32,661 bases of DNA from a virus. The number at the start of each line of letters is the position of its first letter. The stretch's first letter is position 1. The notes below the pieces were generated by a model. The model was not told the DNA's origin. It saw nothing but the letters and a program-made list of their open reading frames with translations, and did no database searches. Where the stretch lies: positions 1-32,661 of IMG/VR virus record IMGVR_UViG_3300025671_000270; one strand, written 5' to 3'. A program made the translations under genes and the position numbers. Shown piece after piece: positions 9,378-26,341 of this stretch.

Positions 9378-10299
9378 ACAACATACCCTATGGGTTGAAA
9401 AGTATCGTTCTCAAGATCTTTCTACATATGTAGGAAACGAACAAATTAAAGGTACTATTTCTAAGTATCTAGAACAAAATGATATTCAAAATTTTATTTT
9501 CTACGGCACAGCCGGTACTGGTAAAACTACTCTTGCTAAACTTATTGTTAACAATCTTAATTGCGATTATCTCTATATTAATGCTTCCGATGAACGTGGT
9601 ATTGATACTATTAGGGATAAGGTCCAGGGTTTCTCGTCTGTGGCGTCTTTTAAGCCGCTCAAAGTTGTCATCTTGGATGAGGCTGATTTCCTTACTATAC
9701 AGGCTCAGGCGTCGTTAAGAAACATTATTGAGACATTTTCAAGAACAACTCGATTTATTTTAACTTGTAATTATATTGAGCGTATTATTGATCCGCTCCA
9801 GTCTCGTTGTCAAGTTTTAAAAATTGTTCCTCCATCTAAATCAGAAGTAGCTTCACATGTTAGTGATATTCTTAAACAAGAAGAAGTTGAAATTGGTTTA
9901 GATGATTTAAAACTAGTAGTTAATCAATTTTATCCTGACATTCGTAAAATGTTAAATACATTACAAATGAGTGTTAATAATGGTGAAATATCCATTGATA
10001 AAGACATATTAGTGTCTAGTAACTACAAAAATAAAGTCCTCATGGAATTATGTAAACCAAGTTCTAAGTCGTTTAATAACATTAGACAAATTATAGCTGA
10101 CTCTGGAGTTAATGATTATGAGGACTTATTTAGATTTTTATTTGATAATATAGATAAATATGCTTCTACTAATGCTGGTGAAGTAATTATTTATATTGAA
10201 GAGTATCAATATCATTCTAATTTTAGAATTGATAAAGAGATAAATGTAATGGCTTTAATTTCTCGAATATTAGCTGTTATTGAAAAAAGAGTATTATGA
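9358..10299 (+). CDS. 44: Clamp loader ATPase, large subunit (T4 gp44-like)
   Basis: A 313-residue AAA+ ATPase that opens the gp45 ring and loads it at primer-template junctions. It has Walker A GTAGTGKTT (50-58), Walker B VVILDEAD (103-110), a sensor-1 region (LTCNYIERI) and the SRC arginine-finger motif (149-151). The N-terminal LWVEKYRSQDL phrase is the standard start of clamp-loader subunits. Length matches T4 gp44 (319). It overlaps the previous gene by 20 bases and the next by four. A short GC-richer patch near 9620-9720 encodes the Walker B region, and the frame is intact across it. Confidence 0.96.
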   Translation: MVTTSSKQHTLWVEKYRSQDLSTYVGNEQIKGTISKYLEQNDIQNFIFYGTAGTGKTTLAKLIVNNLNCDYLYINASDERGIDTIRDKVQGFSSVASFKPLKVVILDEADFLTIQAQASLRNIIETFSRTTRFILTCNYIERIIDPLQSRCQVLKIVPPSKSEVASHVSDILKQEEVEIGLDDLKLVVNQFYPDIRKMLNTLQMSVNNGEISIDKDILVSSNYKNKVLMELCKPSSKSFNNIRQIIADSGVNDYEDLFRFLFDNIDKYASTNAGEVIIYIEEYQYHSNFRIDKEINVMALISRILAVIEKRVL

Positions 10300-10511
10300 G
10301 ACAATTCCTAAAGTTCCTATTAATTTGGATTAGTCAAAACTTAGCAATACCTTTCTGGATGGTAGGTCATGTTCATTTAATGACAACAATTTATCAAGAT
10401 ATACATGAAATTATTATGAGTATGGGTATGAACATTATAGTATTAATAGGATTTATTTTAGATTATAAACAACAAAAACAAAATGAAAAATCAACAACAA
10501 ATGAACATTAA
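10296..10511 (+). CDS. Small membrane protein
   Basis: A 71-residue protein with two likely membrane segments, at about 5-30 (FLLIWISQNLAIPFWMVG) and 42-58 (MGMNIIVLIGFIL), and a polar Gln/Lys/Asn-rich tail. It overlaps gp44 by four bases (ATGA). Its place inside the clamp-loader operon could mean membrane tethering of replication, but nothing in the sequence shows that. No family is recognised. Confidence 0.6.
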   Translation: MRQFLKFLLIWISQNLAIPFWMVGHVHLMTTIYQDIHEIIMSMGMNIIVLIGFILDYKQQKQNEKSTTNEH

Positions 10512-10728
10512 CATTGATTTGTCTAAGACAACATCAGTAGAAACTTCAACTGGTAAAAAAGTATGGAGTCAAGGAATTATTATTCGTAAAGTATCTAAAT
10601 TTATAGTAGGAGCTGAAGAAGATGCTTTAGTACCTATCCCAGTATTTTATGATGCTGAAACAGGAGAAATTTTGACTGAAACTTTACCTAAAGAATTAAG
10701 GGAAGAATATTCAAATGACAATCTTTGA
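10501..10728 (+). CDS. Conserved phage protein of unknown function
   Basis: I prefer ATG 10501 (75 residues). An upstream in-frame ATG at 10483 would add six residues and deepen the overlap with the membrane protein. The protein has a DLSKTTSVET start, a central RKVSKFIVGAEEDALVPIPVF stretch seen as a strand-loop-strand, and DAETGEILTETLP. This recalls short T4-like proteins with a C-x-C zinc site, but the cysteines are absent here. It lies between the two clamp-loader genes, as small ORFs often do in relatives. Function is unknown. Confidence 0.65.
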   Translation: MNINIDLSKTTSVETSTGKKVWSQGIIIRKVSKFIVGAEEDALVPIPVFYDAETGEILTETLPKELREEYSNDNL

Positions 10729-11134
10729 TTGGTTAAAACAAATCACAACAGATAAAAAACCTTGGTCATCTTTTACAGAAGGCCAGCGAGAATCATTTAA
10801 TTCTTACATGGTTCATAGATTTGTAAGTATGTATGAAGGATACACTGAGGTTGCAAATTACGGCCAAAGAATCCCTTATCCTGAAAAAGAAAAAACTTAT
10901 AAATATTACTGTACTATGTTACCTAAAAAGAATGTGTTCCTAAAATATATTAAATCATCTAAGAAGAGACCTAATATTGATTTATTAAAATACATAGCTG
11001 ATTATTATGTTGTTTCACTTGGAGAAGCTGAAGATTATATTTATCTTCTAAAACGAGAAGGGATAGAACATGTTCTTGAAAAATCAGGAGTTAATGAAAA
11101 AGAAATTAAAAAGTTATTAAAAGAAATAAAATGA
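10715..11134 (+). CDS. 62: Clamp loader small subunit (T4 gp62-like)
   Basis: A 139-residue helical protein directly downstream of gp44, which is where gp62 lies in T4-like genomes. Gp62 joins four gp44 subunits to make the loader. Recognisable features are the N-terminal FNSYMVHRF region, PKKNVFLKYIK, and a C-terminal helical bundle with YVVSLGEAEDY and NEKEIKKLLKEIK. It is shorter than T4 gp62 (187) but similar to shorter versions in marine T4-like phages. Assignment depends on position plus pattern and has no catalytic motif to confirm it. Confidence 0.78.
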   Translation: MTIFDWLKQITTDKKPWSSFTEGQRESFNSYMVHRFVSMYEGYTEVANYGQRIPYPEKEKTYKYYCTMLPKKNVFLKYIKSSKKRPNIDLLKYIADYYVVSLGEAEDYIYLLKREGIEHVLEKSGVNEKEIKKLLKEIK

Positions 11135-12806: not shown

Positions 12807-14243
12807 ATGGAATCACGTTTTGAATATCTTCCTCCTGAGAAGAGGAAAAAAATTGTTTTTATCTCTGATGATTTAAGAGTTCACTCAGGAATTGCTACTG
12901 TAGCGAGAGAAATTGTAATTCATACAGCCCATCATTTTAATTGGGTAAGTGTAGGAGGAGCTGTTAAACATAATGAGGAAGGTAAAAGATTAGATTTATC
13001 TCAATCAACTAATGAAGTAAATGGCTTAAAAGATTCATCAGTTATAATGTATCCCGTTAGTGGATATGGTAATCCTGATTTTTTAAGACAATTAATTGAA
13101 TTTGAGAAACCAGATGCTATAATGATGATCACTGATCCTCGTTATTATATTTGGTTGTTCCAAATGGAAAATGAAATTAGAAGAAAAATTCCTATTGTTT
13201 ATTTAAACATTTGGGATGATTATCCTGCTCCACTTTATAATAAACCATATTATGAAGCTTGTGATTTATTAATGGGTATTTCAAAACAAACAGTAAACAT
13301 TAATAGACTTGTGTTAGGTGATAAAGCTGATAAAAAACTTCTTAAATATATTCCTCATGGATTAAATCATAATGTGTTTAAACCTTTAGATAAAAAAGAT
13401 CCTAAACTATTAGAGTTTAAAAACAAATTATTTAAAGGTAAAGAATATGATTTCGCTTTATTGTTTAATTCTAGAAACATTAGGCGTAAACAAATTCCTG
13501 ATACTATTTTGGCTTATAGATATTTCATTGATAACTTACCTAAAGAACAAGCTAAAAAATGTTGTTTGATTTTACATACTGAAAGATCATTAGAGCATGG
13601 TACTGATTTGGAAGCAGTGATTGAATTACTTTTAAATGAAGATCATTATAATGTAGAATTTACAGATGCTAAATTCAACCCAGAACAAATGAATTACTTA
13701 TATAATAGTACAGATGCTCAAATATTATTAACTTCAAATGAAGGATGGGGTTTGAGTATTACTGAAGCTATTTTAGCTGGTAATTTAATTATTGCTAATG
13801 TAACTGGTGGTATGCAAGATCAAATGAGATTTGAAGATGAGGAGGGTAATTGGTTTACTCCAAGTGCTGATGTACCATCAAACCATACTGGAAAATATAA
13901 AAAACATGGTGAGTGGGCATTTCCAGTTTATCCAACCTCAAGAACATTAGTTGGTTCACCACCAACACCTTATATTTGGGACGACACTTGTAGACCAGAA
14001 GATGCTGCTGAACAAATTATGAATGTTTATTCTTTAACTAAAGAAGAAAGACAATCAAAAGGTTTTAAAGGTAGAGAATGGGCCTTAAGTGATGAAGCAG
14101 GTTTTACCTCTTATCATCAAGCTGAAAGAGTGATGGACTCTATAAATGAATTATTTAATACTTGGGAACCAAGAGAAAAATATGAATTAATAAATGTAAA
14201 TACTTATCCTGATAGAGTTATAAATCATAAATTGTTATATTAA
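12807..14243 (+). CDS. GT4-family glycosyltransferase (GT-B fold)
   Basis: A 478-residue retaining GT-B transferase that moves a sugar from a nucleotide donor to a glycan acceptor. The N-terminal Rossmann domain starts with IVFISDDLRVHSGIATVARE (about 16-35). The C-terminal donor domain has LLFNSRNIRRKQIPDTILAY, then LLTSNEGWGLSITEAILAG with the E-x7-E motif, and a nearby TGGMQDQM loop. It opens a run of overlapping carbohydrate genes, and its stop overlaps the next ATG (TAATG). Donor and acceptor cannot be read from sequence. Confidence 0.9.
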   Translation: MESRFEYLPPEKRKKIVFISDDLRVHSGIATVAREIVIHTAHHFNWVSVGGAVKHNEEGKRLDLSQSTNEVNGLKDSSVIMYPVSGYGNPDFLRQLIEFEKPDAIMMITDPRYYIWLFQMENEIRRKIPIVYLNIWDDYPAPLYNKPYYEACDLLMGISKQTVNINRLVLGDKADKKLLKYIPHGLNHNVFKPLDKKDPKLLEFKNKLFKGKEYDFALLFNSRNIRRKQIPDTILAYRYFIDNLPKEQAKKCCLILHTERSLEHGTDLEAVIELLLNEDHYNVEFTDAKFNPEQMNYLYNSTDAQILLTSNEGWGLSITEAILAGNLIIANVTGGMQDQMRFEDEEGNWFTPSADVPSNHTGKYKKHGEWAFPVYPTSRTLVGSPPTPYIWDDTCRPEDAAEQIMNVYSLTKEERQSKGFKGREWALSDEAGFTSYHQAERVMDSINELFNTWEPREKYELINVNTYPDRVINHKLLY

Positions 14244-15550
14244 TGAAACCGTTATTTGTAATAAGTTCTCCTTTTGACACCTATAGTGGCTATGGCGCCA
14301 GAGCAAGAGATTTAGTTAAAGCCATTATTGAAACTGATAAATACGAAGTAATGTTAATGTCTCAGCGTTGGGGCAATACACCTTTTGGATTCTGTAAAGA
14401 CAATCCAGAATGGGAATTTCTTTTAGAAAAAACATTACCAGGTAATCAATTAACTAGACAGCCTGATATTTGGGCTCAAGTTACTGTACCTAATGAATTT
14501 CAAAGAGTAGGTAAATTTAATATTGGTTTTACAGCTGGTATTGAAACAACTGTTTGTGCAGGGGAATGGATTGATGGATGCAATAGAATGGATTTAAATA
14601 TTGTTTCTTCAGAACATTCTAAAAAAGTTTTCCAAAACTCTAAATTTGAAAAAAGAAATAAACAAACTAATGCTTTAGAAGGTGAGATTGAATTGTCAAA
14701 ACCAATGGAAGTATTGTTTGAAGGAGCAGATTTAGACATTTACAAACATCTTAGTTATGGTACTTATGAAGATAATTTATCTGAGTTAAGAAACATTAAA
14801 GAAAAATTCGCTTACTTATTTGTAGGTCATTGGATTCAAGGTGACTTAGGAGAGGATAGAAAAAATGTAGGTTTGTTAGTTAAAGCATTTTTTGAAGTAT
14901 TCAAAAATAAAACCAATAGACCAGCATTAATCTTAAAAACATCTCAAGTTGGTTCTTCATATCTTGATAGAGAAGAAGTAATTAAGAAAATTAAAAAAAT
15001 AGCTAAAACAGTAAATTCTAAAAATTTACCTAATGTTTATGTTTTAAATGGAGAATTAAGTGATGAAGAAATGAATGAACTTTATAATCATCCTAAAGTA
15101 AAAGCTATGGTTAGTTTAACTAAGGGTGAAGGTTTTGGTCGTCCATTACTTGAATTTACTTTAAGTAAAAAACCATTACTAACTACAGGATGGTCTGGTC
15201 ATATGGATTTTCTTGATCCTAAATTCGTTACTTTAGTTAAAGGACAATTAACTAATGTTCATCCAAGTGCAGCTAATCAATTCTTATTATCTGACTCTCA
15301 ATGGTTTAGTCCTGATCATACTGAAGTAGGATTTTACCTAAAAGATATTTTTGATAACTATAAAAAATATACTGAAGGAGCTAAAAAACAAGCTGAAAAA
15401 ACTAAAAATGAATTTAGTTGGGATAAGATGAAAGATAAAATAGATCAAATTTTAACTAATCATCTTCCTGAATTTCCAAAAGAAATAAAATTAGAAATAC
15501 CTAAATTAAATAAAATTCAATTACCTAAATTAGAAAAAATAGATGGATAA
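14243..15550 (+). CDS. GT4-family glycosyltransferase (GT-B fold)
   Basis: A 435-residue protein paired with the preceding GT4 and distantly similar to it. The start PLFVISSPFDTYSGYGARARD gives the glycine-rich N-terminal loop, and FVGHWIQGDLGEDRKNVGLL opens the donor domain. The E-x7-E motif is in TKGEGFGRPLLEFTLSKKP. The last 30 residues form a short Lys/Pro/Leu repeat (IPKLNK, LPKLEK), an unusual basic tail that may contact membrane or partner proteins. It overlaps the following zinc protein by eight bases. Confidence 0.88.
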   Translation: MKPLFVISSPFDTYSGYGARARDLVKAIIETDKYEVMLMSQRWGNTPFGFCKDNPEWEFLLEKTLPGNQLTRQPDIWAQVTVPNEFQRVGKFNIGFTAGIETTVCAGEWIDGCNRMDLNIVSSEHSKKVFQNSKFEKRNKQTNALEGEIELSKPMEVLFEGADLDIYKHLSYGTYEDNLSELRNIKEKFAYLFVGHWIQGDLGEDRKNVGLLVKAFFEVFKNKTNRPALILKTSQVGSSYLDREEVIKKIKKIAKTVNSKNLPNVYVLNGELSDEEMNELYNHPKVKAMVSLTKGEGFGRPLLEFTLSKKPLLTTGWSGHMDFLDPKFVTLVKGQLTNVHPSAANQFLLSDSQWFSPDHTEVGFYLKDIFDNYKKYTEGAKKQAEKTKNEFSWDKMKDKIDQILTNHLPEFPKEIKLEIPKLNKIQLPKLEKIDG

Positions 15551-15998
15551 TTTAATAACATGCGACCGTTGCCAATCAGATGCTTGTTATGTATCTGAAG
15601 TAAATGCAGACATTAAAACTTACTTTTGCTATGGATGTGGCTTTCAAACTAACTCTTTAATGATGGAAGGGGAAGAATTTTTAGAACAACAAAAAGAAAC
15701 TCTACCAGAACTTTATAAAGATTTATTTAGTAAAGATAAAAAAGGAAAAATTTGGATGCCATCAGCAGTAAATATTCCTAATCAAGGAATGATTTTTGCT
15801 AATGGAGCCAATATCAGAGATTGGAATTGGAGTGCTGTTAAAGCAGTTCCTGTAACAGAAGAAGAAAAAGAAAAATACCCTATACCAGGAAAGGAAGGTC
15901 AATACTATGAATGGAGAATGGATATGACCACACTTAAAAACTTCCCAGAACGTGAGTATATGGATGCTCTTTCTTACATTGGAGTATTACCCGAATGA
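15543..15998 (+). CDS. Zinc-ribbon phage protein of unknown function
   Basis: A 151-residue protein with a zinc ribbon at the N-terminus: C7-x2-C10 and C29-x2-C32 around a short beta hairpin. The rest is Trp/Pro-rich (KGKIWMPSAVNIPNQGMIF, NWSAVKAVPVTEEE) and looks like a compact domain. It is embedded between glycosyltransferases with overlaps on both sides, but no sugar-enzyme motif is visible. Similar zinc-ribbon proteins occur in aquatic T4-like phages without a known role. Confidence 0.7.
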   Translation: MDNLITCDRCQSDACYVSEVNADIKTYFCYGCGFQTNSLMMEGEEFLEQQKETLPELYKDLFSKDKKGKIWMPSAVNIPNQGMIFANGANIRDWNWSAVKAVPVTEEEKEKYPIPGKEGQYYEWRMDMTTLKNFPEREYMDALSYIGVLPE

Positions 15999-16603
15999 TT
16001 AGTTTAGCAATTACAGTTTGTAACGAACATAAAGAGTTAGAGACTCTATTGGATTATTTATCCGATAGAGCTCTCTTTCCTGATTATGAAGTTGTAATTC
16101 AAATTGATAAAGACAATTACACTGATGATGTTGTTAGTGTTATTGTTGGAAGGGGAATCAAACATTGGTTCTATCCATTAAATAAAGACTTTGCTAGTTA
16201 TAAAAATGAGCTAGCAAAACACTGTGAAGGAGAATATATCTTCCAAATCGATGCTGACGAATTACCCTCAGCAGATTTACTTAACATGCTCCCAAGCATA
16301 TTAGAAAGCAATCCCGAAGTGGATGTATACTTAGTTCCTCGAATTAATACTGTAAGTGGTATCACCGAGGAACATATCCTCAAGTGGGGCTGGAGATATG
16401 AAAACGATAGAGTAAATTTCCCTGACTATCAATGGAGAATTTATCGAAATGATAAATCAATTAAATGGAAAAATAAAGTTCATGAGGTGTTAGAAGGTTA
16501 TAAAGGTTATGCTGCTTTACCTGCTCAAGATGAATTTTGTTTATTACATCCAAAAACAATTGAACGCCAAGAAAAACAAAACCAGTTTTATAATACAATA
16601 TGA
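15995..16603 (+). CDS. GT2-family glycosyltransferase
   Basis: A 202-residue GT-A transferase of the GT2 type. ISLAITVCNEHKELETLLDY is the N-terminal nucleotide-binding strand and helix, FASYKNELAKHCEGEYIFQI is the helix before the metal site, and DADE replaces the classic DxD. A later segment (WRIYRNDKSIKWKNKVHEVL) is typical of the WaaE/KdtX-like subgroup used in LPS core building. It is short for GT2 but keeps both halves of the active site. It overlaps its neighbours at both ends. Confidence 0.87.
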   Translation: MISLAITVCNEHKELETLLDYLSDRALFPDYEVVIQIDKDNYTDDVVSVIVGRGIKHWFYPLNKDFASYKNELAKHCEGEYIFQIDADELPSADLLNMLPSILESNPEVDVYLVPRINTVSGITEEHILKWGWRYENDRVNFPDYQWRIYRNDKSIKWKNKVHEVLEGYKGYAALPAQDEFCLLHPKTIERQEKQNQFYNTI

Positions 16604-17412
16604 AAATAAAAGTAAATCATTTTGATAAAAAAGTTTTTGAAGATAAATTACAACATTTATCCCATATTGATTTTTCTTTATTTGTAGATGCCATTCCTGA
16701 AAGTCAAGAGGAATTATCTTCTGTTAATATTATTTCTTTTCAAGAACCAAATGAATACTTCGGTTTACATGATTGGGTTATAAAAAATAAAGATATATTT
16801 TCAGTTATATTAACTTGGGATGATAAAGTATTAAACCAATGTGATAATGCTATTTTTCAACCATTTGGACACACCTGGCTAAAACCAGACCAATATGAAA
16901 AAGAACATAAAAAAGAATTTAAATTAGCTCATTTACAAGGTAAACTACTTAAAACATACGGTCATTCTTTAAGACATGAAGTAACAGCTAGAGAAAATGA
17001 ATTTAAAATACCTACTAAATTCTATGAAACTTATGGAGATAGAAACAACATTGATGATGCTCGTTTAGGTAAAGAATTTATATTCAGTGATTCACAGTAT
17101 GGAGTAGTAATTGAAAATACTTCTCATAGAGGTTATTTTACTGAGAAAATATTAGATTGTTTTTTACTTAAAACTATTCCTTTATATTGGGGTTGTTCAA
17201 ACCTATGGGATTATTTTGATACAGACGGTATTATAAATATTAATAACATTGATGACTTAATTAATGTAGCAAATAATTTAACTGAAGATTTTTATGAATC
17301 TAAAAAAGAAGCTATTAATAAAAATTGGCAATTAGCTTTAAATTATGTACATTACGAACAAAACATAATTAATACAATAACTAAAATTTTTAAACACAAT
17401 AATCTTATATGA
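16600..17412 (+). CDS. GT10-like (fucosyltransferase-type) glycosyltransferase
   Basis: A 270-residue protein whose C-terminal half matches the alpha-1,3-fucosyltransferase (GT10) donor-site pattern: VVIENTSHRGYFTEKILD (about 169-186) followed by PLYWGCSNLWDYF. The family uses GDP-fucose or related GDP-deoxysugars. The N-terminal acceptor domain is diverged and short. A GDP-deoxysugar donor would fit the ColD-like dehydratase encoded next. Exact specificity is unknown. Four-base overlaps on both sides imply coupled translation. Confidence 0.8.
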   Translation: MKIKVNHFDKKVFEDKLQHLSHIDFSLFVDAIPESQEELSSVNIISFQEPNEYFGLHDWVIKNKDIFSVILTWDDKVLNQCDNAIFQPFGHTWLKPDQYEKEHKKEFKLAHLQGKLLKTYGHSLRHEVTARENEFKIPTKFYETYGDRNNIDDARLGKEFIFSDSQYGVVIENTSHRGYFTEKILDCFLLKTIPLYWGCSNLWDYFDTDGIININNIDDLINVANNLTEDFYESKKEAINKNWQLALNYVHYEQNIINTITKIFKHNNLI

Positions 17413-18551
17413 AAAAAATATGGTATGCCCCTTATAAGTTTGAGTCTTATGGGGAAGAAGAAATCAAAGCAGTAGAAGAATCACTCCGATCAGGTTGGTT
17501 AGGTGGACAAGGACCTAAATCTGTTGAATTTGAAGAAAAAATAGCTAAACACTTTGGTAAAAAGTATGGTGTATTTGTAAATTCAGGTTCATCAGCTTGT
17601 TTACTTGCTTTAGCTAGTTTACAACTGCCTAAAGGTACTAAAATTGTTACACCAGCATGTACCTTTTCAACTACATTAGCTCCTATTATTCAATTAGGAC
17701 TCAAACCAGTATTTGTTGATGTTGGAGTAAATGATTATGTAGCCCAAGTAGGTGAAGTGTTAGCTGCTATTGATGATGAAGTTAAAGTCCTCATGTTGCC
17801 TAATTTGATTGGTAATAAACCAAATTGGAAAGAAATCAAAGAAGGTTTAATAGCAATGGGTCGCGAAGATATTATTTTGATTGAAGACTCAGCAGACACA
17901 GTCACTCATACTCCAGAATCAGATATCGCCACTACTAGTTTTTATGCATCACATGTTATTACAGCAGGTGGTTCAGGTGGTATGGTAATGTTTAATGATA
18001 AGAAATTAGTAAATGTTTGTTTACAATTCCGAGATTGGGGACGAATGGGTAATGACTCAGAAATTATGTCTGATCGTTTTAACCATGATGTAGATGGTAT
18101 TGCTTATGACCATAAATTCTTATATAGTGTTTTAGGTTATAACTTTAAATCATCTGAAATGAATGCTGCTTTTGGATTGGTTCAATTGGATCGTTTTAAA
18201 GAATTTGAACAAATTCGTAGAGCAAATATTGAGCGTTATATTAAAAATCTTCAAGGTGTAGGTGATATTGTATTACCTGATGATTCAATTAAACCAAATT
18301 GGTTAGCAATTCCTTTACAAACTGAAAAACGTTTTGAACTATTGAATTTCTTGGAAGACAATAATATCCAAACTCGTGTGACATTTGCTGGTAACGTAAC
18401 TCGTCACCCTGTTTACAGAGAATATCTCCAACCATTCACTAATTCAGATCTTATTATGAAAAATGGTTTCTTATTAGGAGCACATCATGGTATGACTATT
18501 GAAGATGTAGATTATGTTTGTGATAAAATCAAAGAATTTTTTAATAAATAA
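17409..18551 (+). CDS. PLP-dependent sugar 3-dehydratase (ColD/RfbH-type, DegT fold)
   Basis: A 380-residue DegT/DnrJ/EryC1/StrS-fold protein. The usual catalytic Lys is replaced by His182 (CAT 17952-17954) in TTSFYASHVITAGGSGG. This marks the C3-dehydratase branch (GDP-4-keto-6-deoxymannose 3-dehydratase ColD, and E1 of the CDP-ascarylose/yersiniose pathway) rather than aminotransferases. Family phrases are present: RDWGR, YDHKFLYSVLGYNFKSSEM and TRVTFAGNVTRHP. The four cysteines that bind the 2Fe-2S cluster in E1 are absent between RDWGR and YDHKF, and the length (ColD about 388) is nearer ColD. Predicted role: removal of the 3-hydroxyl from an NDP-4-keto-6-deoxyhexose. Confidence 0.85.
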   Translation: MKKIWYAPYKFESYGEEEIKAVEESLRSGWLGGQGPKSVEFEEKIAKHFGKKYGVFVNSGSSACLLALASLQLPKGTKIVTPACTFSTTLAPIIQLGLKPVFVDVGVNDYVAQVGEVLAAIDDEVKVLMLPNLIGNKPNWKEIKEGLIAMGREDIILIEDSADTVTHTPESDIATTSFYASHVITAGGSGGMVMFNDKKLVNVCLQFRDWGRMGNDSEIMSDRFNHDVDGIAYDHKFLYSVLGYNFKSSEMNAAFGLVQLDRFKEFEQIRRANIERYIKNLQGVGDIVLPDDSIKPNWLAIPLQTEKRFELLNFLEDNNIQTRVTFAGNVTRHPVYREYLQPFTNSDLIMKNGFLLGAHHGMTIEDVDYVCDKIKEFFNK

Positions 18552-18554
18552 TTA

Positions 18555-20333
18555 GTGAAAAAAACATTAGAACATTTAGTTGACTCTTTAGTTTATAATA
18601 ATATAGATACCTTTTTTCTAGTTACTGGAGGTGCTATTGCTCCTATAGTAGATTATATAGGACAACATCCAAAAACTAAATATTACTGTTTTCAACATGA
18701 ACAATCAGCTGCTATGGCGGCTGAAACATATTTCAGAACATCAGGAAAATTAGGAGTAGTACTAAGTACTAGCGGCCCAGGAGCTCAAAATTTATTGAAT
18801 GGCATTTGTGGATGTTGGTATGAATCAATTCCTTGCTTATTTATAACAGGTCAGGTTAGTACTTATGAATCTATTGATTGTATAGAATCAAATCCAAGAC
18901 AACTAGGTTTTCAAGAAATGCCTGTTGTAGAATCTTTTAAACCATTTACTAAATTTATTAAAAAATTAACTTCAAATAATGATTTTAATCAAACTTTAAA
19001 ACAAGCAATTGAAACTTGTTTTATTGGAAGGTTTGGTCCTAGTCTATTAGATATCCCAATGGATATCCAAAATCGACTATTAGAAGATACTTCTTTAATT
19101 AAATTTAATACATATAGTCCTATTATTGATGAAAATTTAGAAAATAAAATAAAGAATATTAATATAAAAATCAAAGAAAGTAAAAGACCACTTTTATTAA
19201 TAGGTCATGGGGTTAGATTATCTAATTCAATGGATGAAGTATTAATGTTGATAAATAAATTAAATATTCCTTTTGTTGTTAGTTGGGGTGGTTTTGATTC
19301 TATTCCTCATAATCATCCTTTATTTATAGGAGACATAGGAGTTTATGGAAGTAGAGGAGGCAACTTCGCCATCCAAAATTGTGATTTACTGTTATCTATA
19401 GGTTCTAGATTAGATACAAGACAAACTGGAGGTGATTTAAAAACATTTTCAAGAGAATCATATAAAATTATGGTTGATATAGATGAAAATGAAATAAAAA
19501 AAGGTAGAGGATTAAATATAAACCTACCAGTAGTTTGCGATGCTAAGATCTTTATTAATCATTTATTTGGTTCTTGTGAACCTCAAGATAAAAAAGAATG
19601 GAACCAAAAATGTCAAGATTATAAAAATATAAAAGAAAATAGAACTTTAAAAGAAGATGTTTTAACTTCTTATGAATTTTTAGAACAACTAAATGATAAT
19701 CTTCCTGAAGACTCAGTTATTATTCCTGATGAGGGAGGTCATTTAGTGTGGGCTATGCAATCTTTAAAAACAAAATTTAAACAAAGAATATTTTCTAATT
19801 TTGGAAACTCATCAATGGGGTATGGATTACCAGCAGCGATAGGAGCAGCTATTGGGACTGATAAACCTGTAATTTGTATTGATGGAGATGGAGGTTTTCA
19901 AATGAATATTCAAGAACTCCAAACTGTTAAACATTATAATTTACCTATTAAGATTTTTATAATGAATAATAATTGTTACGGTATTATTAAACAATTTCAA
20001 GATTTAGTCTTCAACTCCAGATATATAGCTACTGAAAATAAAGATTATTCAGTTCCTGACTTTATTAAAGTGGCTCAAGCATATGGTATTAAAGCAGTAG
20101 AAGCTAACAAAAATAACTTTAAAGAAGTAATAAATTTGGCTTTACAAGAAGAAGGAAGTATATTAGTAAATGTTATTATTGATAGAGAACAAAAATTATT
20201 ACCAAAATTAGAATTTGGAAATCCTTTAGAAGATATGTTTCCTTATCTAGAAGAAGATATTTTAAATAAAAATATGATTATAAATAAAATTCCAAGAAAA
20301 GAAAAAATTAAAAGTTGGGTTACATTAAAATAA
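18555..20333 (+). CDS. Thiamine-diphosphate enzyme, acetolactate-synthase-like (possible YerE-type sugar-branching enzyme)
   Basis: A 592-residue ThDP enzyme starting at GTG 18555. The activating glutamate is E49 (FQHEQSAAMAAE). The central domain has IGSRLDTRQTGG, and the ThDP/Mg motif is D443-G-D-G-G followed about 25 residues later by NNN. These are features of the acetolactate synthase family. In yersiniose A synthesis a family member (YerE) transfers an acetyl unit from pyruvate to the C4 ketone of a 3,6-dideoxy sugar. The dehydratase directly upstream makes that kind of ketone, so a branching role is attractive. The alternative is acetolactate or another ketoacid product, which would link to PanB downstream. 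No decay is visible. Confidence 0.82.
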   Translation: MKKTLEHLVDSLVYNNIDTFFLVTGGAIAPIVDYIGQHPKTKYYCFQHEQSAAMAAETYFRTSGKLGVVLSTSGPGAQNLLNGICGCWYESIPCLFITGQVSTYESIDCIESNPRQLGFQEMPVVESFKPFTKFIKKLTSNNDFNQTLKQAIETCFIGRFGPSLLDIPMDIQNRLLEDTSLIKFNTYSPIIDENLENKIKNINIKIKESKRPLLLIGHGVRLSNSMDEVLMLINKLNIPFVVSWGGFDSIPHNHPLFIGDIGVYGSRGGNFAIQNCDLLLSIGSRLDTRQTGGDLKTFSRESYKIMVDIDENEIKKGRGLNINLPVVCDAKIFINHLFGSCEPQDKKEWNQKCQDYKNIKENRTLKEDVLTSYEFLEQLNDNLPEDSVIIPDEGGHLVWAMQSLKTKFKQRIFSNFGNSSMGYGLPAAIGAAIGTDKPVICIDGDGGFQMNIQELQTVKHYNLPIKIFIMNNNCYGIIKQFQDLVFNSRYIATENKDYSVPDFIKVAQAYGIKAVEANKNNFKEVINLALQEEGSILVNVIIDREQKLLPKLEFGNPLEDMFPYLEEDILNKNMIINKIPRKEKIKSWVTLK

Positions 20334-20337
20334 AATT

Positions 20338-21273
20338 ATGGCAGCAGATAGTAAAACTAAAAAAACAATTCTTACCCTTAATCAAAATAAGAGTAAAGGA
20401 AACAAAACTGTATTAGTCACTGCGTATGATTACCCTCAAGCACGTATGGCAGACGCCGCTGGGGTTGATTGTATTTTAGTAGGTGATTCATTAGGCATGA
20501 CTACATTAGGTCACAAAACAACTATTCCTGTAACTATGGATGATATGATTCGTTCGTGTGAAGCAGTAAGTAGAGGTAATGAAAATGCTCTCTTAATTGG
20601 TGATATGCCCTATATGTCCTACCAACCATCAGATCAAGTAGCAATTGAAAATGCAGGTCGTTTTATTGTTGCTGGGTGTGATATGGTTAAAGTAGAAGGC
20701 GCTATGGTTGACCGAGTTAAAGCCATTGCTAGCTCAGGTATTATGGTTATGAGTCATTTAGGTCTTACACCTCATACTCGCGCTAAATTAGGTGGTTATA
20801 AAGTTCAAGGCAAAACAGCAGCCCAAGCTGAAATTGTTTTAAAACAAGCTTTAGCTCTTCAAGAAGCAGGTTGTTCAGCCTTATTACTTGAGGCAATGCC
20901 TAAAGAACCAGCAGGAATGATTGCCCGTGCTTTAGATATCCCCGTTTATGGAATTGGCGCTGGTGATGAAGTAGATGGTCAGTTAGTTATTTTTCATGAT
21001 CTAATGGGACTATTTTGGGAATTCAAATCAAAATTTGTTAAACGTTATTGTGAAGCGGGTCAAATTATGACTCAAGCATTAACAGATTATGCTAATGAGG
21101 TTCGTAATGGTCAATTCCCATCACAAGAAAATTTCTATGAAATTAAAGAAGAAGAACTTGAAAAATTACTAGGAGATGAAAAATGGAAATATGAGTTAGA
21201 TAAAGATTATTATAACAATAATAACCATAGTGTGACTCCAATTACTAATAATCCTACAGTAGTAAAACGTTAA
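20338..21273 (+). CDS. panB: 3-methyl-2-oxobutanoate hydroxymethyltransferase (ketopantoate hydroxymethyltransferase)
   Basis: A 311-residue KPHMT, which makes ketopantoate from 2-oxoisovalerate and methylene-tetrahydrofolate in pantothenate/CoA synthesis. Metal and active-site residues match E. coli PanB: D50 (LVGDSLGMT), D89 (IGDMPYMSY), E120 (MVKVEGA) and E185 (LLLEAMPKE), with HLGLTPH, GGYKVQGK and YGIGAGDEVDGQ also intact. It is longer than E. coli PanB (264), with about 20 extra N-terminal residues and a low-complexity, Asn-rich C-terminus. Its base composition is visibly richer in G+C (roughly 40% in sampled lines, against about 20% in the next gene), which suggests later acquisition. 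In a sugar cluster its role is unclear. Confidence 0.92.
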   Translation: MAADSKTKKTILTLNQNKSKGNKTVLVTAYDYPQARMADAAGVDCILVGDSLGMTTLGHKTTIPVTMDDMIRSCEAVSRGNENALLIGDMPYMSYQPSDQVAIENAGRFIVAGCDMVKVEGAMVDRVKAIASSGIMVMSHLGLTPHTRAKLGGYKVQGKTAAQAEIVLKQALALQEAGCSALLLEAMPKEPAGMIARALDIPVYGIGAGDEVDGQLVIFHDLMGLFWEFKSKFVKRYCEAGQIMTQALTDYANEVRNGQFPSQENFYEIKEEELEKLLGDEKWKYELDKDYYNNNNHSVTPITNNPTVVKR

Positions 21274-22040
21274 TGAATATTTTAATTACAGGGGCGGGGG
21301 GGTATATTGGAAAAGTTTTTTATAATTATTTTAAAACTGAGTATAATATATCTCTTTTAACCCGAAAAGAAGCAGATTTAACTAATTTAAAACAAGTTAA
21401 AAGTTTTTTTCAAGACAAATATTTTGATATTGTAATACATTGTGCTATAGTAGGGGGAGGTAGATTAGATGAGGATACTCCTTCTGTATTAGATGACAAT
21501 TTAAAAATGTATTACAATTTATTAGAATGTGAAAATCACTTTAATAAATTAATCCATTTCGGTTCAGGAGCAGAATCACAAGAAAGTTTTTATGGATGGA
21601 GTAAAAAAATAATTCATAACTCAATTCAAGATAAAGATAAATTTTATAATATTAGAATTTTAAATGTATTTGATGAAAATGAGTTAGATTATAAATTTAT
21701 TAAAACTAACATTCAAAAATACATAAATAAACAAGATATAGAAATCTTTCAAAATAAGTTTATGGATTTCTTTTATATGGAAGACTTAGTTACTTTAATT
21801 AGATATTATATTAACAATGATGGTCCTAAAGTAATAGATTGTTGTTATGATTATTCTCCTACATTATATGATATAGCTCAAATTATAAATAATTTATCTG
21901 ATTATAAGGTCAATATAAATTTTAAAAATTGGAATATGGCTCCTCCCTTTAATGGAAAATTTACTAATTTAAATTTAAAATTTATTGGTTTAGAACAAGG
22001 TATAAAAAATGTATATAATATTTTAAAGAATGAATATTAA
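21273..22040 (+). CDS. NAD(P)-dependent sugar-nucleotide reductase/epimerase (extended SDR)
   Basis: A 255-residue extended short-chain dehydrogenase. The Rossmann motif is ITGAGGYIG (5-13), the catalytic serine is in HFGSGAES (S98), and the Tyr-Lys pair is Y107-G-W-S-K111. The family includes GDP-fucose synthase, ColC and the yersiniose reductase YerF, which reduce or epimerise 4-keto or branched keto sugars. In this operon it would naturally complete a route begun by the dehydratase and the ThDP enzyme. It is shorter than typical members (about 310). The ATG overlaps the panB stop, and the gene is strikingly AT-rich. Confidence 0.85.
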   Translation: MNILITGAGGYIGKVFYNYFKTEYNISLLTRKEADLTNLKQVKSFFQDKYFDIVIHCAIVGGGRLDEDTPSVLDDNLKMYYNLLECENHFNKLIHFGSGAESQESFYGWSKKIIHNSIQDKDKFYNIRILNVFDENELDYKFIKTNIQKYINKQDIEIFQNKFMDFFYMEDLVTLIRYYINNDGPKVIDCCYDYSPTLYDIAQIINNLSDYKVNINFKNWNMAPPFNGKFTNLNLKFIGLEQGIKNVYNILKNEY

Positions 22041-22944
22041 AATATCTTGTCATATAATGCCCTGGGATATAGATTATGCTTTATTAACTTTTACCCAATT
22101 AAAAAAATCATTTCCTTATATACCAAAAGATGTTAATATTACTTTAAATCCTGAATTAAATTTATCTAATTATCTAGTAGATTGGAATAATAGTAAATTA
22201 CCTAAAAATTATTTTATAGATAAATTCAATACTCTTCTCTATCTATTAGAAGACTACTCAGTCAATTCAAAAATCAATGAAGAAGATATTCTTTATGGCC
22301 ATTTAGACCAACAAAGAAACCTAATATCAGAGGAAGTAGATTATTATATGAGTATTTGTCCTGATGTTTATTTTAGTGAATATACTCTTTATTATTTAAT
22401 AGAATCAGCTAAACAAATAAAAAATAAATATTTTGTATTAAGTCCCCAACATAGAAAATTAACTGATAATAGTTGGGATCCAACTACTGATAAAGATTAT
22501 TTAAATATACCTTATGAAAAATGTGATGAAGTTAATATTTTTGATATAAGATATAATAGTAAACAAAAAAATGATTTAACAGTAGAACCAGTTCACACAC
22601 CTAAATTTGCTGGTTGGTGTGATTTATATAGTAAAGCATTTTATGAAGATTTAGTTCCTATACATGATGATTGGAGTGGTTATGGCCCTTGGGATTGGTA
22701 TAGTATGATTTTAATAAATTATGCTAAACAATTTAATCTTGACTTTCAACAGTATGTTTTAAGAGGACTTACAGTAGGAGACTATTGGACAGGTAATTGG
22801 AAAGAAAAAGATGGATTATCAGGTTACTATAAGAGTTTAATAGTTAAAAAAGATATACCTGACCAAAGAGCTAATTTTGAAGCTAATTTAGAAGAATATG
22901 TCAAGAAAGGTATTTTAATGTTAAAAGAAAAAGGAATCATATGA
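22030..22944 (+). CDS. Unrecognised protein, possibly a GT-A-type glycosyltransferase
   Basis: A 304-residue protein without a family I can name. Suggestive elements are GHLDQQ at about 94-99, in place of a DxD, and a late AGWCDLYSKAFYEDL followed by DDWSGYGPWDWYSM. The latter resembles the Gly-Trp-Glu-Asp loop that precedes the catalytic carboxylate in several GT-A enzymes. The layout, with strands first and a Trp/Gly-rich loop near two-thirds of the length, fits a transferase. It overlaps the reductase gene by 11 bases and the next gene by four, so it belongs to the same pathway unit. Assignment is inference. Confidence 0.5.
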   Translation: MNIKISCHIMPWDIDYALLTFTQLKKSFPYIPKDVNITLNPELNLSNYLVDWNNSKLPKNYFIDKFNTLLYLLEDYSVNSKINEEDILYGHLDQQRNLISEEVDYYMSICPDVYFSEYTLYYLIESAKQIKNKYFVLSPQHRKLTDNSWDPTTDKDYLNIPYEKCDEVNIFDIRYNSKQKNDLTVEPVHTPKFAGWCDLYSKAFYEDLVPIHDDWSGYGPWDWYSMILINYAKQFNLDFQQYVLRGLTVGDYWTGNWKEKDGLSGYYKSLIVKKDIPDQRANFEANLEEYVKKGILMLKEKGII

Positions 22945-24299
22945 TTAAATTAATTGTATTTGATTTGGATGGAGTTTTAGTAGAGGCTAAAAATATCCAT
23001 TTTGAAGCATTAAATAAAGCTTTAGGTAAATACGCTATTGATTGGAACGAGCATTTATCTACTTATGATGGTTTGAAAACAAATCAAAAACTAGAAATGC
23101 TTCATAAGAATAAAGGTTTACCTAAAGAGAAATTTGAAGAAGTATGGAATAATAAACAAAAATATACTCTAGAGGCATTAGCTAGTTTAAAAAAAGATGA
23201 TACTTTATATTCAACTATCCAAAATTTATCATCAGATGGATATAAATTAGCTGTTTGTTCTAATAGTATTCGTAAAACAGTATTAACTGTATTATCTAAA
23301 TTAGGTATTATTGAGTTTTTTGATTTGATATTATCAAATGAAGATGTTCAAAACAGTAAACCCCATCCAGAAATGTATTGGAAGGCTATCTCAAAAATGA
23401 GTTGTCTGCCTGAAGAAGCATTAATTATTGAAGATTCACCTTACGGATTGTTAGCTGCTTCTAGAAGTAAAGCTCATATACTTAGAGTTGGATCCCCTAA
23501 AGAAGTTAATTATATTAATATAGCTCAAAAAATTAAATCAATTAAAGAAGGATATATTATGAAATCACCCGCTTGGAGAGATGAAAAATTAAATATACTT
23601 ATACCAATGGCTGGTGCTGGTTCTAGATTTGAACAGGCTGGTTATACATTTCCTAAACCGCTTATTGATGTTAGGAATAAACCTATGATTCAAGTGGTAG
23701 TTGAAAACCTTAATATTAAAGCTAATTACGTTTATATTGTTCAAAAGAAACATAGAGAAAAATACAACCTAGATACTCTACTTAATCTAATTACTCCAGG
23801 TTGTAAAATAGTAGAGGTTGATGGTTTAACTGAAGGGGCTGCTTGTACAGCATTACTAGCTAAAGAATATATTAATAATGATGCTCCTTTATTCTTTGCC
23901 AATTCAGACCAGTTTGTTGAATGGGACTCAAATGAGTTTATGTATAAAATGAATGAAACAAATACTGATGGAGGTATTGTTACATTTGAAGCCACTCATC
24001 CTAAATGGTCATTTGCTAAAGTAAATGAATTAGGATTAGTAACTGAAGTAGCTGAGAAAAATCCTATATCAAATATTGCTACTGTTGGTTATTATTATTG
24101 GAAACATGGTTCTGACTTTGTAAAATATGCTGAACAGATGATTGATAAAAATATTAGAGTAAATAATGAGTTTTATGTTTGTCCTGTGTTTAATGAAGCT
24201 ATTCAAGACAATAAACAAATTAGAACATTTAATATAGATAAAATGTGGGGGTTGGGAACACCTGAAGATTTAAAATATTATCTAGAAAATTACAAATGA
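22941..24299 (+). CDS. Fusion of HAD phosphatase/phosphomutase and NDP-sugar pyrophosphorylase
   Basis: A 452-residue two-domain protein. Residues 1-205 are a beta-phosphoglucomutase-like HAD: D8-L-D10-G (motif I), CSNS (II), the SKPHPEMY lysine (III) and EDSPYG (IV). Having both aspartates in motif I permits mutase or phosphatase chemistry. Residues 207-452 are a nucleotidyltransferase: IPMAGAGSRF, FPKPLIDV, FFANSDQFV in place of LVxxGD, and KMWGLGTPEDL. The fusion could turn a sugar-6-phosphate into sugar-1-phosphate and then into an NDP-sugar. An internal ATG at 23559 with a GAAGG just upstream could also yield the second domain alone. Base specificity (CTP, GTP or dTTP) is not readable. 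Confidence 0.88.
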   Translation: MIKLIVFDLDGVLVEAKNIHFEALNKALGKYAIDWNEHLSTYDGLKTNQKLEMLHKNKGLPKEKFEEVWNNKQKYTLEALASLKKDDTLYSTIQNLSSDGYKLAVCSNSIRKTVLTVLSKLGIIEFFDLILSNEDVQNSKPHPEMYWKAISKMSCLPEEALIIEDSPYGLLAASRSKAHILRVGSPKEVNYINIAQKIKSIKEGYIMKSPAWRDEKLNILIPMAGAGSRFEQAGYTFPKPLIDVRNKPMIQVVVENLNIKANYVYIVQKKHREKYNLDTLLNLITPGCKIVEVDGLTEGAACTALLAKEYINNDAPLFFANSDQFVEWDSNEFMYKMNETNTDGGIVTFEATHPKWSFAKVNELGLVTEVAEKNPISNIATVGYYYWKHGSDFVKYAEQMIDKNIRVNNEFYVCPVFNEAIQDNKQIRTFNIDKMWGLGTPEDLKYYLENYK

Positions 24300-24724
24300 T
24301 ACTAATTAGCCATAGAGGAAATACCAATGGTCCTAACCCTGAAAAGGAAAACCATCCAGACTACATTATAAAAGCATTATCTGAAGGGTATGATGTTGAA
24401 GTTGACGTTTGGTATGTTAATGGTGAATTTTATTTAGGACATGATAAACCTCAATACAAAACTAATAAAATATTTTTAAGTAATAATCATCTATGGGTTC
24501 ATTGTAAAAATGTAGAAGCATTGAATCAATTTAGATTTGATTCCGGTATTAATTATTTTTGGCATGAAAATGATACAGTTGCTTTAACTTCACAAAAATA
24601 CATTTGGGCCTACCCAGGCAAACAACCTATTAAAAATAGTATAGCAGTTATGCCTGAACTTTATTTAGATGATGTAAATCAATGTGCAGGGATTTGTTCT
24701 GATTATATTCAAAATTATAAATGA
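24296..24724 (+). CDS. Short GDPD/PI-PLC-like phosphodiesterase-related protein
   Basis: A 142-residue protein carrying the N-terminal half of a glycerophosphodiester phosphodiesterase barrel: ISHRGN (4-9), EVDVW with E-x-D near 36-38, and LGHDKPQ giving the HD pair. These are the metal and acid-base positions of GDPD. Later family elements are missing and the protein is about half the usual 250 residues. It may be a compact variant, possibly acting on a glycan phosphodiester, or a remodelled binding protein. It overlaps genes on both sides inside the carbohydrate operon, and similar short GDPD-like genes are sometimes found in capsule clusters. Confidence 0.68.
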   Translation: MILISHRGNTNGPNPEKENHPDYIIKALSEGYDVEVDVWYVNGEFYLGHDKPQYKTNKIFLSNNHLWVHCKNVEALNQFRFDSGINYFWHENDTVALTSQKYIWAYPGKQPIKNSIAVMPELYLDDVNQCAGICSDYIQNYK

Positions 24725-25425
24725 GTCAAGGAATAATAATACAAGGACCAACAGATTATGCTTCCCATATAGTAGATTCATATGAGGGAATAGATAATGT
24801 TGTTTGGTCAACTTGGATAGATGAACCTTTAAGTAATATTGAATTAATTAAATCAAAAGGAATAGAAGTAGTACAAATTGATAAACCTACTATTGCAGGA
24901 CATATAAATGTTAATTTTCAAACATTAAGTACTTATTTTGGTATCAACCATTTAAAAAATAAAGGAGTAACTGAGGGATTAAAAGTAAGAGGAGATATGA
25001 AAATAAATAATCCTAAGTTACTTTTAGAAGTAATAAAAGGAAAGAAAATATCTTTTTTATCTATATGTAAACCTAATATTAGACCTTTATATTATGAATT
25101 AGTTTACCAACATACAAGTTTTGACTTCCCAGGAGATTTAGTTTTGTATGGTAGTTTGGATGAGTTAGAAAAATGTTTTAACTTCCAGGTTGAAGATAAT
25201 AATCCTATTCCTCCTGAGGCATTAATTGCTTATAGTTATTTAACACAATCAAATATAGAATTTAATTTTGACTATGACCATTTTATTAATTCAGGTATTA
25301 GTTTCTTTGCTCAAGAATGTTTAGATAATAATATAGAAATTGATTGGTTAAAGCGAAGTAATGAAGAACCGTTTTGGAAAAATATATTAAACCACTCAGC
25401 AGATAAAACTTTATATAATTATTAA
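24721..25425 (+). CDS. WavE-like lipopolysaccharide synthesis protein
   Basis: A 234-residue protein with the start GIIIQGPTDY, the VVWSTWIDEP strand, and the LKVRGDMKINNP site that stands where WavE-family proteins carry K-x-R-x-D-M. The family is tied to LPS core or O-antigen synthesis (named from Vibrio cholerae wavE) and is probably a glycosyltransferase. The DM within this motif is a likely donor or metal contact. It overlaps the GDPD-like gene by four bases (ATGA) and precedes a GT2 gene. Family call is by motif only. Confidence 0.72.
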   Translation: MSQGIIIQGPTDYASHIVDSYEGIDNVVWSTWIDEPLSNIELIKSKGIEVVQIDKPTIAGHINVNFQTLSTYFGINHLKNKGVTEGLKVRGDMKINNPKLLLEVIKGKKISFLSICKPNIRPLYYELVYQHTSFDFPGDLVLYGSLDELEKCFNFQVEDNNPIPPEALIAYSYLTQSNIEFNFDYDHFINSGISFFAQECLDNNIEIDWLKRSNEEPFWKNILNHSADKTLYNY

Positions 25426-25426
25426 A

Positions 25427-26341
25427 ATGATATCATTAATTATACCCACTAATAAAACTAACTCTAATTATACAAAATACCTTGTAAATAATATTAGGGA
25501 AATTTATCCTGATGAAAATCAAGTAGAAGTAATTGTATCTGAAGATGATACAGTGACTATGGGAATAAATTATAATAATGCTGTTGCTAAAGCTAAAGGT
25601 GAAAAAATTATTCTACTCCATAACGACATGGTTATTAAACCTGGTTTTGTAGAACAAATGGATAAAGACATCACTAAAGGTAGAATTACAGCATACACCA
25701 GAATTGAACCTCCTATCTACCCAGATACATTTCCTGGTAAAATGATTTTGGATTGTGGAACTGATTTAGATAATTTTAATTATCAAAAGTTTTTAGATTT
25801 TAAAATTGAAGACACTACTTTACTTGATGGTGGTGCCCAAATGTTTTTTGGTTGTATGAAAGAGGATTACTTAGGTATTGATGGAGTTACTTTTCAATTG
25901 TTTTGTGAAGATGATGATCTACATTTAAGACATAACATAGCTGGTTATGAACAAAAAGTTAGCTCAGCTCATGTTTATCATTTTGTTAGTAAATCATCTC
26001 GAGTAGGAAACTATCAAGAAATTGAACAACAATCAAATTATAATTTTGTTAAAAAATGGGGTTTTAGAAGATCTCATTACAATGTTGTGTATAATAAAAA
26101 ATATGTTATTAAAAACACTAATAGTAAGTTAGATGAAACTTTAAAATGGTGGTTTAATGATGGAGAGGATATTATTGTTGAAGTTGATGGAAATACATTC
26201 ACTAATCAAGATTATAATTATATCACTCAACTAAATGATATTATAAAAGAAACAAATGAAATAGGAACTTTCCAAATTGGAAATCTTAAAATAACAATAA
26301 ACAGTTTAGAAGAACAACAGAACAAACTAATTAGATTATGA
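25427..26341 (+). CDS. GT2-family glycosyltransferase, last gene of the carbohydrate block
   Basis: A 304-residue GT-A enzyme. ISLIIPTNK starts the nucleotide-binding fold, NNAVAKAKGEKIILLHNDMV gives the helix and the metal-site HND (a DxD variant), and FCEDDDLHLR is the downstream ED catalytic-base motif. The C-terminal 80 residues (from about 225) form an extra domain rich in Asn and Glu with a possible coiled segment, absent from minimal GT2 enzymes. Its stop overlaps the next small ORF. Confidence 0.87.
   Translation: MISLIIPTNKTNSNYTKYLVNNIREIYPDENQVEVIVSEDDTVTMGINYNNAVAKAKGEKIILLHNDMVIKPGFVEQMDKDITKGRITAYTRIEPPIYPDTFPGKMILDCGTDLDNFNYQKFLDFKIEDTTLLDGGAQMFFGCMKEDYLGIDGVTFQLFCEDDDLHLRHNIAGYEQKVSSAHVYHFVSKSSRVGNYQEIEQQSNYNFVKKWGFRRSHYNVVYNKKYVIKNTNSKLDETLKWWFNDGEDIIVEVDGNTFTNQDYNYITQLNDIIKETNEIGTFQIGNLKITINSLEEQQNKLIRL

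Follow-up and report, generated by a model that had tools for sequence, protein, structure and literature searches.

What could a phage make with a thiamine diphosphate (ThDP) enzyme and a homologue of PanB, the ketopantoate hydroxymethyltransferase, when their genes lie between those of a DegT-fold protein and an extended short-chain dehydrogenase/reductase (SDR)? These four genes occupy positions 17409-22040 of the virus record IMGVR_UViG_3300025671_000270, which we analyzed over its whole length of 32,661 bases (hereafter, the window). The window carries T4-like replication genes (DNA polymerase, phrog_262, and clamp loader, phrog_168, in PHROGs) and, from about 12.8 to 26.3 kb, a + strand series of glycosyltransferase-type genes.

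The four open reading frames (ORFs) were found at the coordinates given in a preliminary description of this DNA, with the tight spacing noted there (Table 1), all on the + strand. They matched PF01041 (DegT, 234 bits), the TPP_enzyme domains N, M, and C (ThDP enzyme), PF02548 (PanB, 329 bits), and Epimerase/RmlD (SDR). The DegT and ThDP genes are separated by 3 bases and the ThDP and PanB genes by 4 bases, while PanB and SDR overlap by 1 base, a pattern expected of one operon. The DegT gene also overlaps its upstream neighbor by 4 bases and the SDR gene its downstream neighbor by 11 bases. The four-gene arrangement was found at 100% in two other contigs (L002 and L003), and the ThDP-PanB pair in many diverged viral contigs; because of this recurrence, the arrangement is due neither to chance nor to a chimera. 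The gene order is thus kept in relatives, as had been anticipated. Most likely, the four genes represent a branched-chain deoxy-sugar module inside a phage glycosylation island.

The DegT-fold protein groups with C3-dehydratases

The preliminary description had noted His182 in place of the catalytic lysine and had set the grouping of this protein, with C3-dehydratases or with aminotransferases, beforehand as a test. His182 falls at the alignment position of the catalytic histidine of the dehydratase E1 (3bcx), and this histidine is kept in 96/96 close phage homologues. At the same position, the ColD row of the alignment (3b8x) has an asparagine; we take 3b8x to be the H188N mutant of ColD. The best PDB match was E1 (206 bits), followed by ColD (about 132 bits), with all aminotransferases lower. 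In a tree of 60 sequences, the protein was located among the histidine dehydratases, apart from ArnB, WecE, and other lysine enzymes (Shimodaira-Hasegawa-like approximate likelihood ratio test [SH-aLRT], 99); this and all other trees were built by a quick method and carry SH-aLRT support only. An aminotransferase identity was rejected by this grouping. The nearest cellular sister was a Doudnabacteria protein whose gene adjoins that of a 43%-identical ThDP enzyme. By sequence, the window protein is a C3-dehydratase.

None of the [2Fe-2S] cysteines of E1 was found in the window protein or in any of the 96 close phage homologues, and on the RfbH model it scored 260 bits against a cut-off of 423. 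Because of these two results, the enzyme is predicted to follow the ColD mechanism, which needs no E3 reductase, rather than that of E1/E3. The comparison with E1 and ColD made in the preliminary description hence stands for the C3-dehydratase group, but not for an E1-like mechanism. Longer phage RfbH-like proteins retain four or five of the E1 iron-sulphur cysteines.

The ThDP enzyme is related to YerE and JanthE

All three TPP domains are present in the ThDP enzyme, and its catalytic Glu49, the GDG motif at 444 to 446, and Asn471/472 are invariant in 12 relatives. Its best PDB matches were 8rph (321 bits) and 5ahk (300 bits), the latter being presumably YerE of Pseudomonas protegens; acetolactate synthases reached at most 245 bits. 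The structure 8rph is that of JanthE (PMC12188165). In NCBIfam, the models of acetohydroxyacid synthase (AHAS) gave the best matches, all below cut-off (402 versus 538 bits for TIGR00118, IlvB), and no IlvN-like ORF follows the gene in the window.

We analyzed a tree of 80 rows, in which AHAS was represented by E. coli IlvI and IlvB and by those cellular rows whose next gene has the size of IlvN. All AHAS rows were on one side of a branch, and the window enzyme was on the opposite side, together with JanthE, 5ahk, and RfbH-linked bacterial enzymes. Forcing it into the AHAS group was rejected (approximately unbiased [AU] test, p = 3e-53), in agreement with the earlier view that it is not a true IlvB. 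Genes of YerE-like ThDP enzymes were linked to a C3-dehydratase gene, and bacterial relatives pair RfbH directly with this ThDP type. The window enzyme is, by these comparisons, a YerE/JanthE-like carboligase, with ketosugar carboligation as its predicted reaction. A true acetolactate synthase identity was rejected on the basis of the tree, the AU test, and the gene context. In four contigs (L097, L098, L099, and L100), at about 9.9 to 11.7 kb, the YerE-like enzyme is encoded by two separate ORFs of about 335 and 250 amino acids (aa), always beside PanB.

A separate PanB lineage accompanies the ThDP genes

The role of PanB had been left unexplained. The window PanB scores above the cut-off of TIGR00222 (280 versus 208 bits), and the residues corresponding to E. 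coli D45, S46, D84, K112, E114, H136, and E181 are kept in it and in all phage relatives. Among 93 viral relatives scanned, 80 were retained. The ThDP gene lies immediately before PanB in 53/80, at most two genes after it in 25/80, and two genes before it in 1/80, so that 79/80 are within two genes of each other; at the remaining locus (L260), the ThDP gene comes three genes after. A C3-dehydratase gene is at most seven genes away in 64/80 loci.

In a tree with 28 bacterial PanBs, the phage PanBs linked to ThDP genes came together in a clade of their own (support, 100). Their ThDP partners, in contrast, are polyphyletic, and on the tree of these enzymes PanB partnership must have switched five times or more. 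A single PanB lineage has thus been combined with several ThDP lineages. The phage PanBs lie outside the housekeeping PanB clade and are without linked pan or ilv genes. They also differ consistently from the E. coli enzyme, for instance at positions 212 and 214 (E. coli numbering), and are longer by about 43 residues at the C terminus; I212 of E. coli PanB has been mutated to broaden its 2-oxo-acid range (PMC7611260). No phage-type PanB was found among 795 sampled genomes of two phyla, from which the loci obtained were short (best identity, 46%), and the 80 top-ranking cellular ThDP loci contained no ThDP-PanB pair. In the record of the Microcystis phage MaAM05 (L101; MW495066.1, 255360-272139), panB is located close to panC and to a suf cluster, which suggests either bacterial sequence or another, metabolic role of PanB.

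Phage ThDP modules without PanB carry in the same stretch an HpcH/HpaI-family aldolase (5 loci), presumably the family of the aldolase YfaU, or a NeuB homologue (3 loci). Where a YerE-like phage ThDP enzyme lacks a helper of this kind (L004, L007, and L033), it belongs to the sister group of JanthE (support, 100), an enzyme that accepts ordinary, simple 2-oxo acids. For the YerE-like ErwE of erwiniose biosynthesis, the preferred 2-oxo acids are hydroxylated ones, such as 4-hydroxy-2-oxobutanoate (PMC12247030), and E. coli PanB and YfaU convert 2-oxo acids and formaldehyde to 4-hydroxy-2-oxo acids in vitro (PMC7611260, PMC10127515). In view of this chemistry, of the HpcH/HpaI or NeuB substitutes, and of the helper-less enzymes near JanthE, the probable role of PanB is to provide the ThDP enzyme with a hydroxymethylated 2-oxo-acid donor. 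NeuB-ThDP pairs are present in bacteria too: YerE-like ThDP genes lie beside NeuB homologues at L114, L115, L120, L121, L131, L139, L140, and L142, which suggests a nonulosonate-like 2-oxo acid as donor also in cells.

Related phages exchange the proposed branching enzyme

We next considered what follows the DegT gene in 58 nonredundant loci that have this DegT and at least six downstream genes. A ThDP module alone was present in 33, a short RmlD-like reductase (c7) alone in 24, both in 1, and neither in 0. The c7 gene would be the one expected where the 4-ketone is simply reduced. The ThDP modules are of three types: the three-domain YerE-like enzyme, a split transketolase (TK; Transketolase_N and Transket_pyr), and a split enzyme resembling E1 of pyruvate dehydrogenase (here, E1 type; E1_dh and Transket_pyr). 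According to a 2025 review, the ThDP groups that branch ketosugars are YerE-like decarboxylases, alpha-KADH2, and split-gene transketolases, the last being unproven in vitro (PMC12247030).

In the fetched flanks of 74 TK-anchored loci, we found an SDR in 37, a C3-dehydratase in 30, and c7 in none; the corresponding numbers for 73 E1-type loci were 66, 57, and 0. The c7 gene is thus absent from 147/147 loci. An RmlD-like SDR comes after ThDP modules of the DC, TK, and E1 types, and we propose it as the reductase of the branch ketone. For the mutual avoidance of ThDP module and c7, the Fisher value is 2e-15, which overstates the independence of related contigs. A better argument is the repeated switching of the module on the DegT tree: across 65 phage sequences, its type changes at least 25 times, and sister pairs can differ in superfamily (E1 type in L009 and TK in L017; TK in L065 and YerE-like in L078). 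Relatives exchange the predicted side-arm enzyme as a cassette, which suggests that a sugar coat or mark is diversified in this way. Two contigs (L248 and L258) hold, at around position 10 kb, adjoining genes for E1-alpha, E1-beta, PanB, a YerE-like ThDP enzyme, and the N and C parts of a transketolase, and hence all three superfamilies. In L014, a sugar C-methyltransferase (Methyltransf_14, 10008-11105), possibly for a second carbon branch, lies between a 4,6-dehydratase and a split transketolase.

Substrate supply and glycosylation target

The preliminary description had proposed a 3,6-dideoxy, C4-branched sugar. The 3-deoxy state and the branch are supported by the data above, whereas the 6-deoxy state, like the nucleotide, would follow from relatives. 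In many of these, a 4,6-dehydratase directly precedes the ThDP-PanB pair and comes close to dTDP-glucose 4,6-dehydratase (298 bits versus a cut-off of 365). No CDP-specific enzyme was found in the window or in a 65-kb sister contig.

A clear membrane span was detected in none of the island proteins, whose 19-residue hydropathy means reached at most 1.74. Since Wzx/Wzy also went undetected, lipid-linked assembly of lipopolysaccharide (LPS) is not favored. Phage proteins, DNA, or a host glycan may be the target of glycosylation. With regard to DNA hypermodification, a thymidylate-synthase-family gene in three large relatives was uninformative.

A proposed pathway and its alternatives

Taken together, we consider it likely that the locus specifies a branched deoxy-sugar, made by the following steps. 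The DegT-fold enzyme, using pyridoxamine phosphate and, as ColD, no iron-sulphur partner, would remove the C3 hydroxyl from a nucleoside diphosphate-4-keto-6-deoxyhexose to give a 3-deoxy-4-ketosugar, a dehydration that we infer from its family and from His182. PanB would hydroxymethylate a 2-oxo acid of the host, with methylene-tetrahydrofolate or formaldehyde, to provide the donor. The YerE-like enzyme would decarboxylate this 2-oxo acid and place the acyl group on C4, resulting in a tertiary alcohol with an acyl branch, whose ketone the SDR would reduce before the adjacent GT-A enzyme transfers the sugar. Of this scheme, we observed directly how the enzymes are placed in their families, that catalytic residues are conserved, that ThDP and PanB genes are paired, and that related phages exchange the module. 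The sequence of C3-dehydratase, YerE-like enzyme, and SDR leading to a C4-branched 3-deoxy sugar, as first put forward in the preliminary description, came through all three tests laid down there and gains strong support from the module swapping.

Several points weigh against this pathway. A 4,6-dehydratase gene is missing from the window, its 65-kb sister contig, and two large relatives (128 and 171 kb); the host, or a portion of the genome outside the sequenced DNA, would therefore have to provide the substrate. The substrates of the SDR and the DegT-fold enzyme cannot be read from sequence, and PanB passes the housekeeping model, so ketoisovalerate may be its substrate. Within the fetched flanks, a C3-dehydratase accompanies only 30/74 split-TK loci, and a TK need not always use a 3-deoxysugar. 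Finally, the Fisher value is inflated by the relatedness of the loci, and the tree supports come from quick searches without bootstrap.

Alternatively, PanB could act after the ThDP step: rather than making the donor, it would hydroxymethylate the acyl branch once this is attached to the nucleotide sugar. Its chemistry requires an enolisable carbonyl, which an acetyl branch offers, and the tight PanB-ThDP linkage is compatible with either order. This order is nevertheless unlikely, given that PanB invariably retains the residues examined at its 2-oxo-acid site for catalysis and metal binding and that the enzymes substituting for PanB beside ThDP genes, HpcH/HpaI aldolase and NeuB, make 2-oxo acids. 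We see a somewhat smaller chance that the DegT-fold enzyme leads to a plain 3,6-dideoxysugar and that the ThDP enzyme and PanB serve a different glycan decoration, for which they would supply an unrelated keto acid or acyl group. Many relatives indeed have DegT followed by the c7 reductase only, and a nearby C3-dehydratase is often missing at TK loci; however, the loci with ThDP modules are precisely those that lack c7, leaving the SDR as the only ketone reducer, and bacteria pair RfbH directly with this ThDP enzyme.

A role in auxiliary metabolism, with an IlvB-like acetolactate synthase and PanB raising host coenzyme A (CoA) by way of branched-chain amino acids or pantothenate/CoA, appears very improbable. 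The score of PanB on TIGR00222 with its catalytic residues kept, the AHAS models as top, below-cut-off NCBIfam matches, and panB near panC in MaAM05 would all fit such a role. Yet the grouping with true AHAS was rejected, the phage PanBs form their own clade, and no IlvN, IlvC, PanC, or PanE is encoded nearby. Moreover, the genes lie between a C3-dehydratase and a sugar SDR, amid glycosyltransferases, in a slot shared with TK and E1-type modules. Least credible is a phosphonate-type pathway, in which the trio would be look-alikes of phosphoenolpyruvate (PEP) mutase, phosphonopyruvate decarboxylase, and an aminotransferase. The folds are superficially alike, PanB belonging to the PEP mutase fold superfamily, and a nucleoside triphosphate-transferase is nearby, but PanB is a real PanB, the ThDP enzyme is a full three-domain YerE-like enzyme, and the DegT-fold protein has a histidine instead of the lysine; family placement contradicts this pathway.

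Beyond the donor-fed pathway that we favor for the window, we lean slightly towards regarding large aquatic phages as a combinatorial factory of branched sugars, in which one 3-deoxy-4-ketosugar, the product of a conserved C3-dehydratase, would receive different branches from swappable cassettes. These would comprise a plain reductase or a YerE-like, transketolase-like, or E1-like ThDP enzyme, with special donors provided by PanB, HpcH/HpaI, or NeuB, the PanB-fed branch being one without a described bacterial counterpart.

Other genes of the island

The product of the gene after the SDR gave an AlphaFold2 model with a pLDDT of 94, and its Foldseek matches were almost all GT-A enzymes, with modest TM-scores (0.28 to 0.49 by query). 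The gene directly follows the SDR in 36/43 loci and is our candidate for the transferase of the branched sugar. It is, together with the GT2 gene at 25427, an addition to the glycosyltransferases listed previously. Among those, the GT2 call at 15995 and, by PHROGs, the GT4-like calls at 14243 and 12807 were borne out, whereas the GT10-like protein stayed below cut-off; its gene lies directly upstream of DegT in many relatives. We could not substantiate the WavE-like label of the protein at 24721, for which Pfam, NCBIfam, and PHROGs gave no match.

The fusion of a HAD/beta-phosphoglucomutase-like domain with a nucleotidyltransferase (22941-24299), possibly involved in sugar activation, recurs in several relatives, usually followed by a small ORF (24296-24724 in the window). 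A small zinc-ribbon-like protein (15543-15998), encoded between the GT4 and GT2 genes, is conserved in most relatives. Outside the island, a GroEL-like chaperonin (7297-8910; phrog_5725, 528 bits) is flanked by replication genes.

Table 1. Features of the proposed glycosylation island, with positions in the window
Feature	Position	Strand	Length	Basis
Predicted DegT-fold C3-dehydratase, His182 for Lys, no [2Fe-2S] cysteines	17409..18551	+	380 aa	E1 best PDB match, tree
YerE/JanthE-like ThDP carboligase (predicted)	18555..20333	+	592 aa, GTG start	PDB scores, tree, AU test
PanB homologue, phage-only clade	20338..21273	+	311 aa	TIGR00222, catalytic residues, ThDP linkage
RmlD-like SDR, proposed branch-ketone reductase	21273..22040	+	255 aa	Position after DC, TK, and E1 type ThDP modules
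GT-A fold glycosyltransferase, putative branched-sugar transferase	22030..22944	+		AlphaFold2, Foldseek, linkage
HAD phosphatase/nucleotidyltransferase fusion, possible sugar activation	22941..24299	+		Family matches
GT10-like protein, below Pfam cut-off	16600..17412	+		20.9 vs 23.9 bits
GT2 glycosyltransferase	15995..16603	+		Above cut-off
GT4-like glycosyltransferase	14243..15550	+		phrog_2170, 89 bits
Second phrog_2170-type glycosyltransferase	12807..14243	+		59 bits
Protein earlier labeled WavE-like, unconfirmed	24721..25425	+		No family match
GT2-family protein, end of island	25427..26341	+		25.8 bits vs cut-off of 23.3

Significance and comparison with known systems

Branched deoxy-sugars made by ThDP enzymes are already known from bacterial LPS and from antibiotics. 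In line with the earlier statement that no phage with this combination had been described, a literature search on ThDP-made branched sugars in phages returned no direct description, and a collection of 50,697 phage records held no close relative (at least 60% identity) of the ThDP enzyme or PanB. Many matches in that collection bear bacterial gene names or lie on small unannotated contigs and look bacterial. A marine survey discarded contigs with lipopolysaccharide islands before its auxiliary-gene catalogue was made (PMC11360552), and such clusters may therefore be underreported. If our proposal is true, viruses diversify a sugar by cassette exchange, PanB has been recruited in nature to provide carboligase donors, and many candidate carboligases for chiral tertiary alcohols become available, among them split transketolases, which have yet to be proven to act on ketones.

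Among the closest known systems is the yersiniose A/erwiniose pathway of bacterial LPS, which likewise links a C3-dehydratase (E1), a ThDP enzyme (YerE or ErwE), and an SDR. ErwE uses hydroxylated 2-oxo acids (PMC12247030), similar to the donor proposed here. Unlike that pathway, the window module is phage encoded, has a DegT-fold enzyme without an iron-sulphur cluster and a linked PanB, and is exchanged with TK and E1-type modules. With ColD, the GDP-4-keto-6-deoxymannose 3-dehydratase, the window enzyme shares the histidine for lysine, the lack of an iron-sulphur cluster, and a similar length, although in sequence it is nearer to E1. JanthE is the closest solved relative of the ThDP enzyme by score and is on the same side of the tree with respect to AHAS; however, JanthE has a CDG motif and broad donor use, whereas the window enzyme has GDG and a dedicated PanB partner, and the sisters of JanthE are PanB-free phage enzymes (L004 and L007) rather than the window enzyme. 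Housekeeping PanB has the same fold and the same metal-binding and catalytic residues, while the phage clade differs by its pocket substitutions, its C-terminal extension, and a ThDP partner in place of panC. Finally, alpha-KADH2 and the split-gene transketolases encoded in the branched-sugar clusters of antibiotics are also two-gene ThDP enzymes with proposed or demonstrated ketosugar branching, but the phage ones occupy the slot of the YerE-like enzyme, beside a C3-dehydratase.

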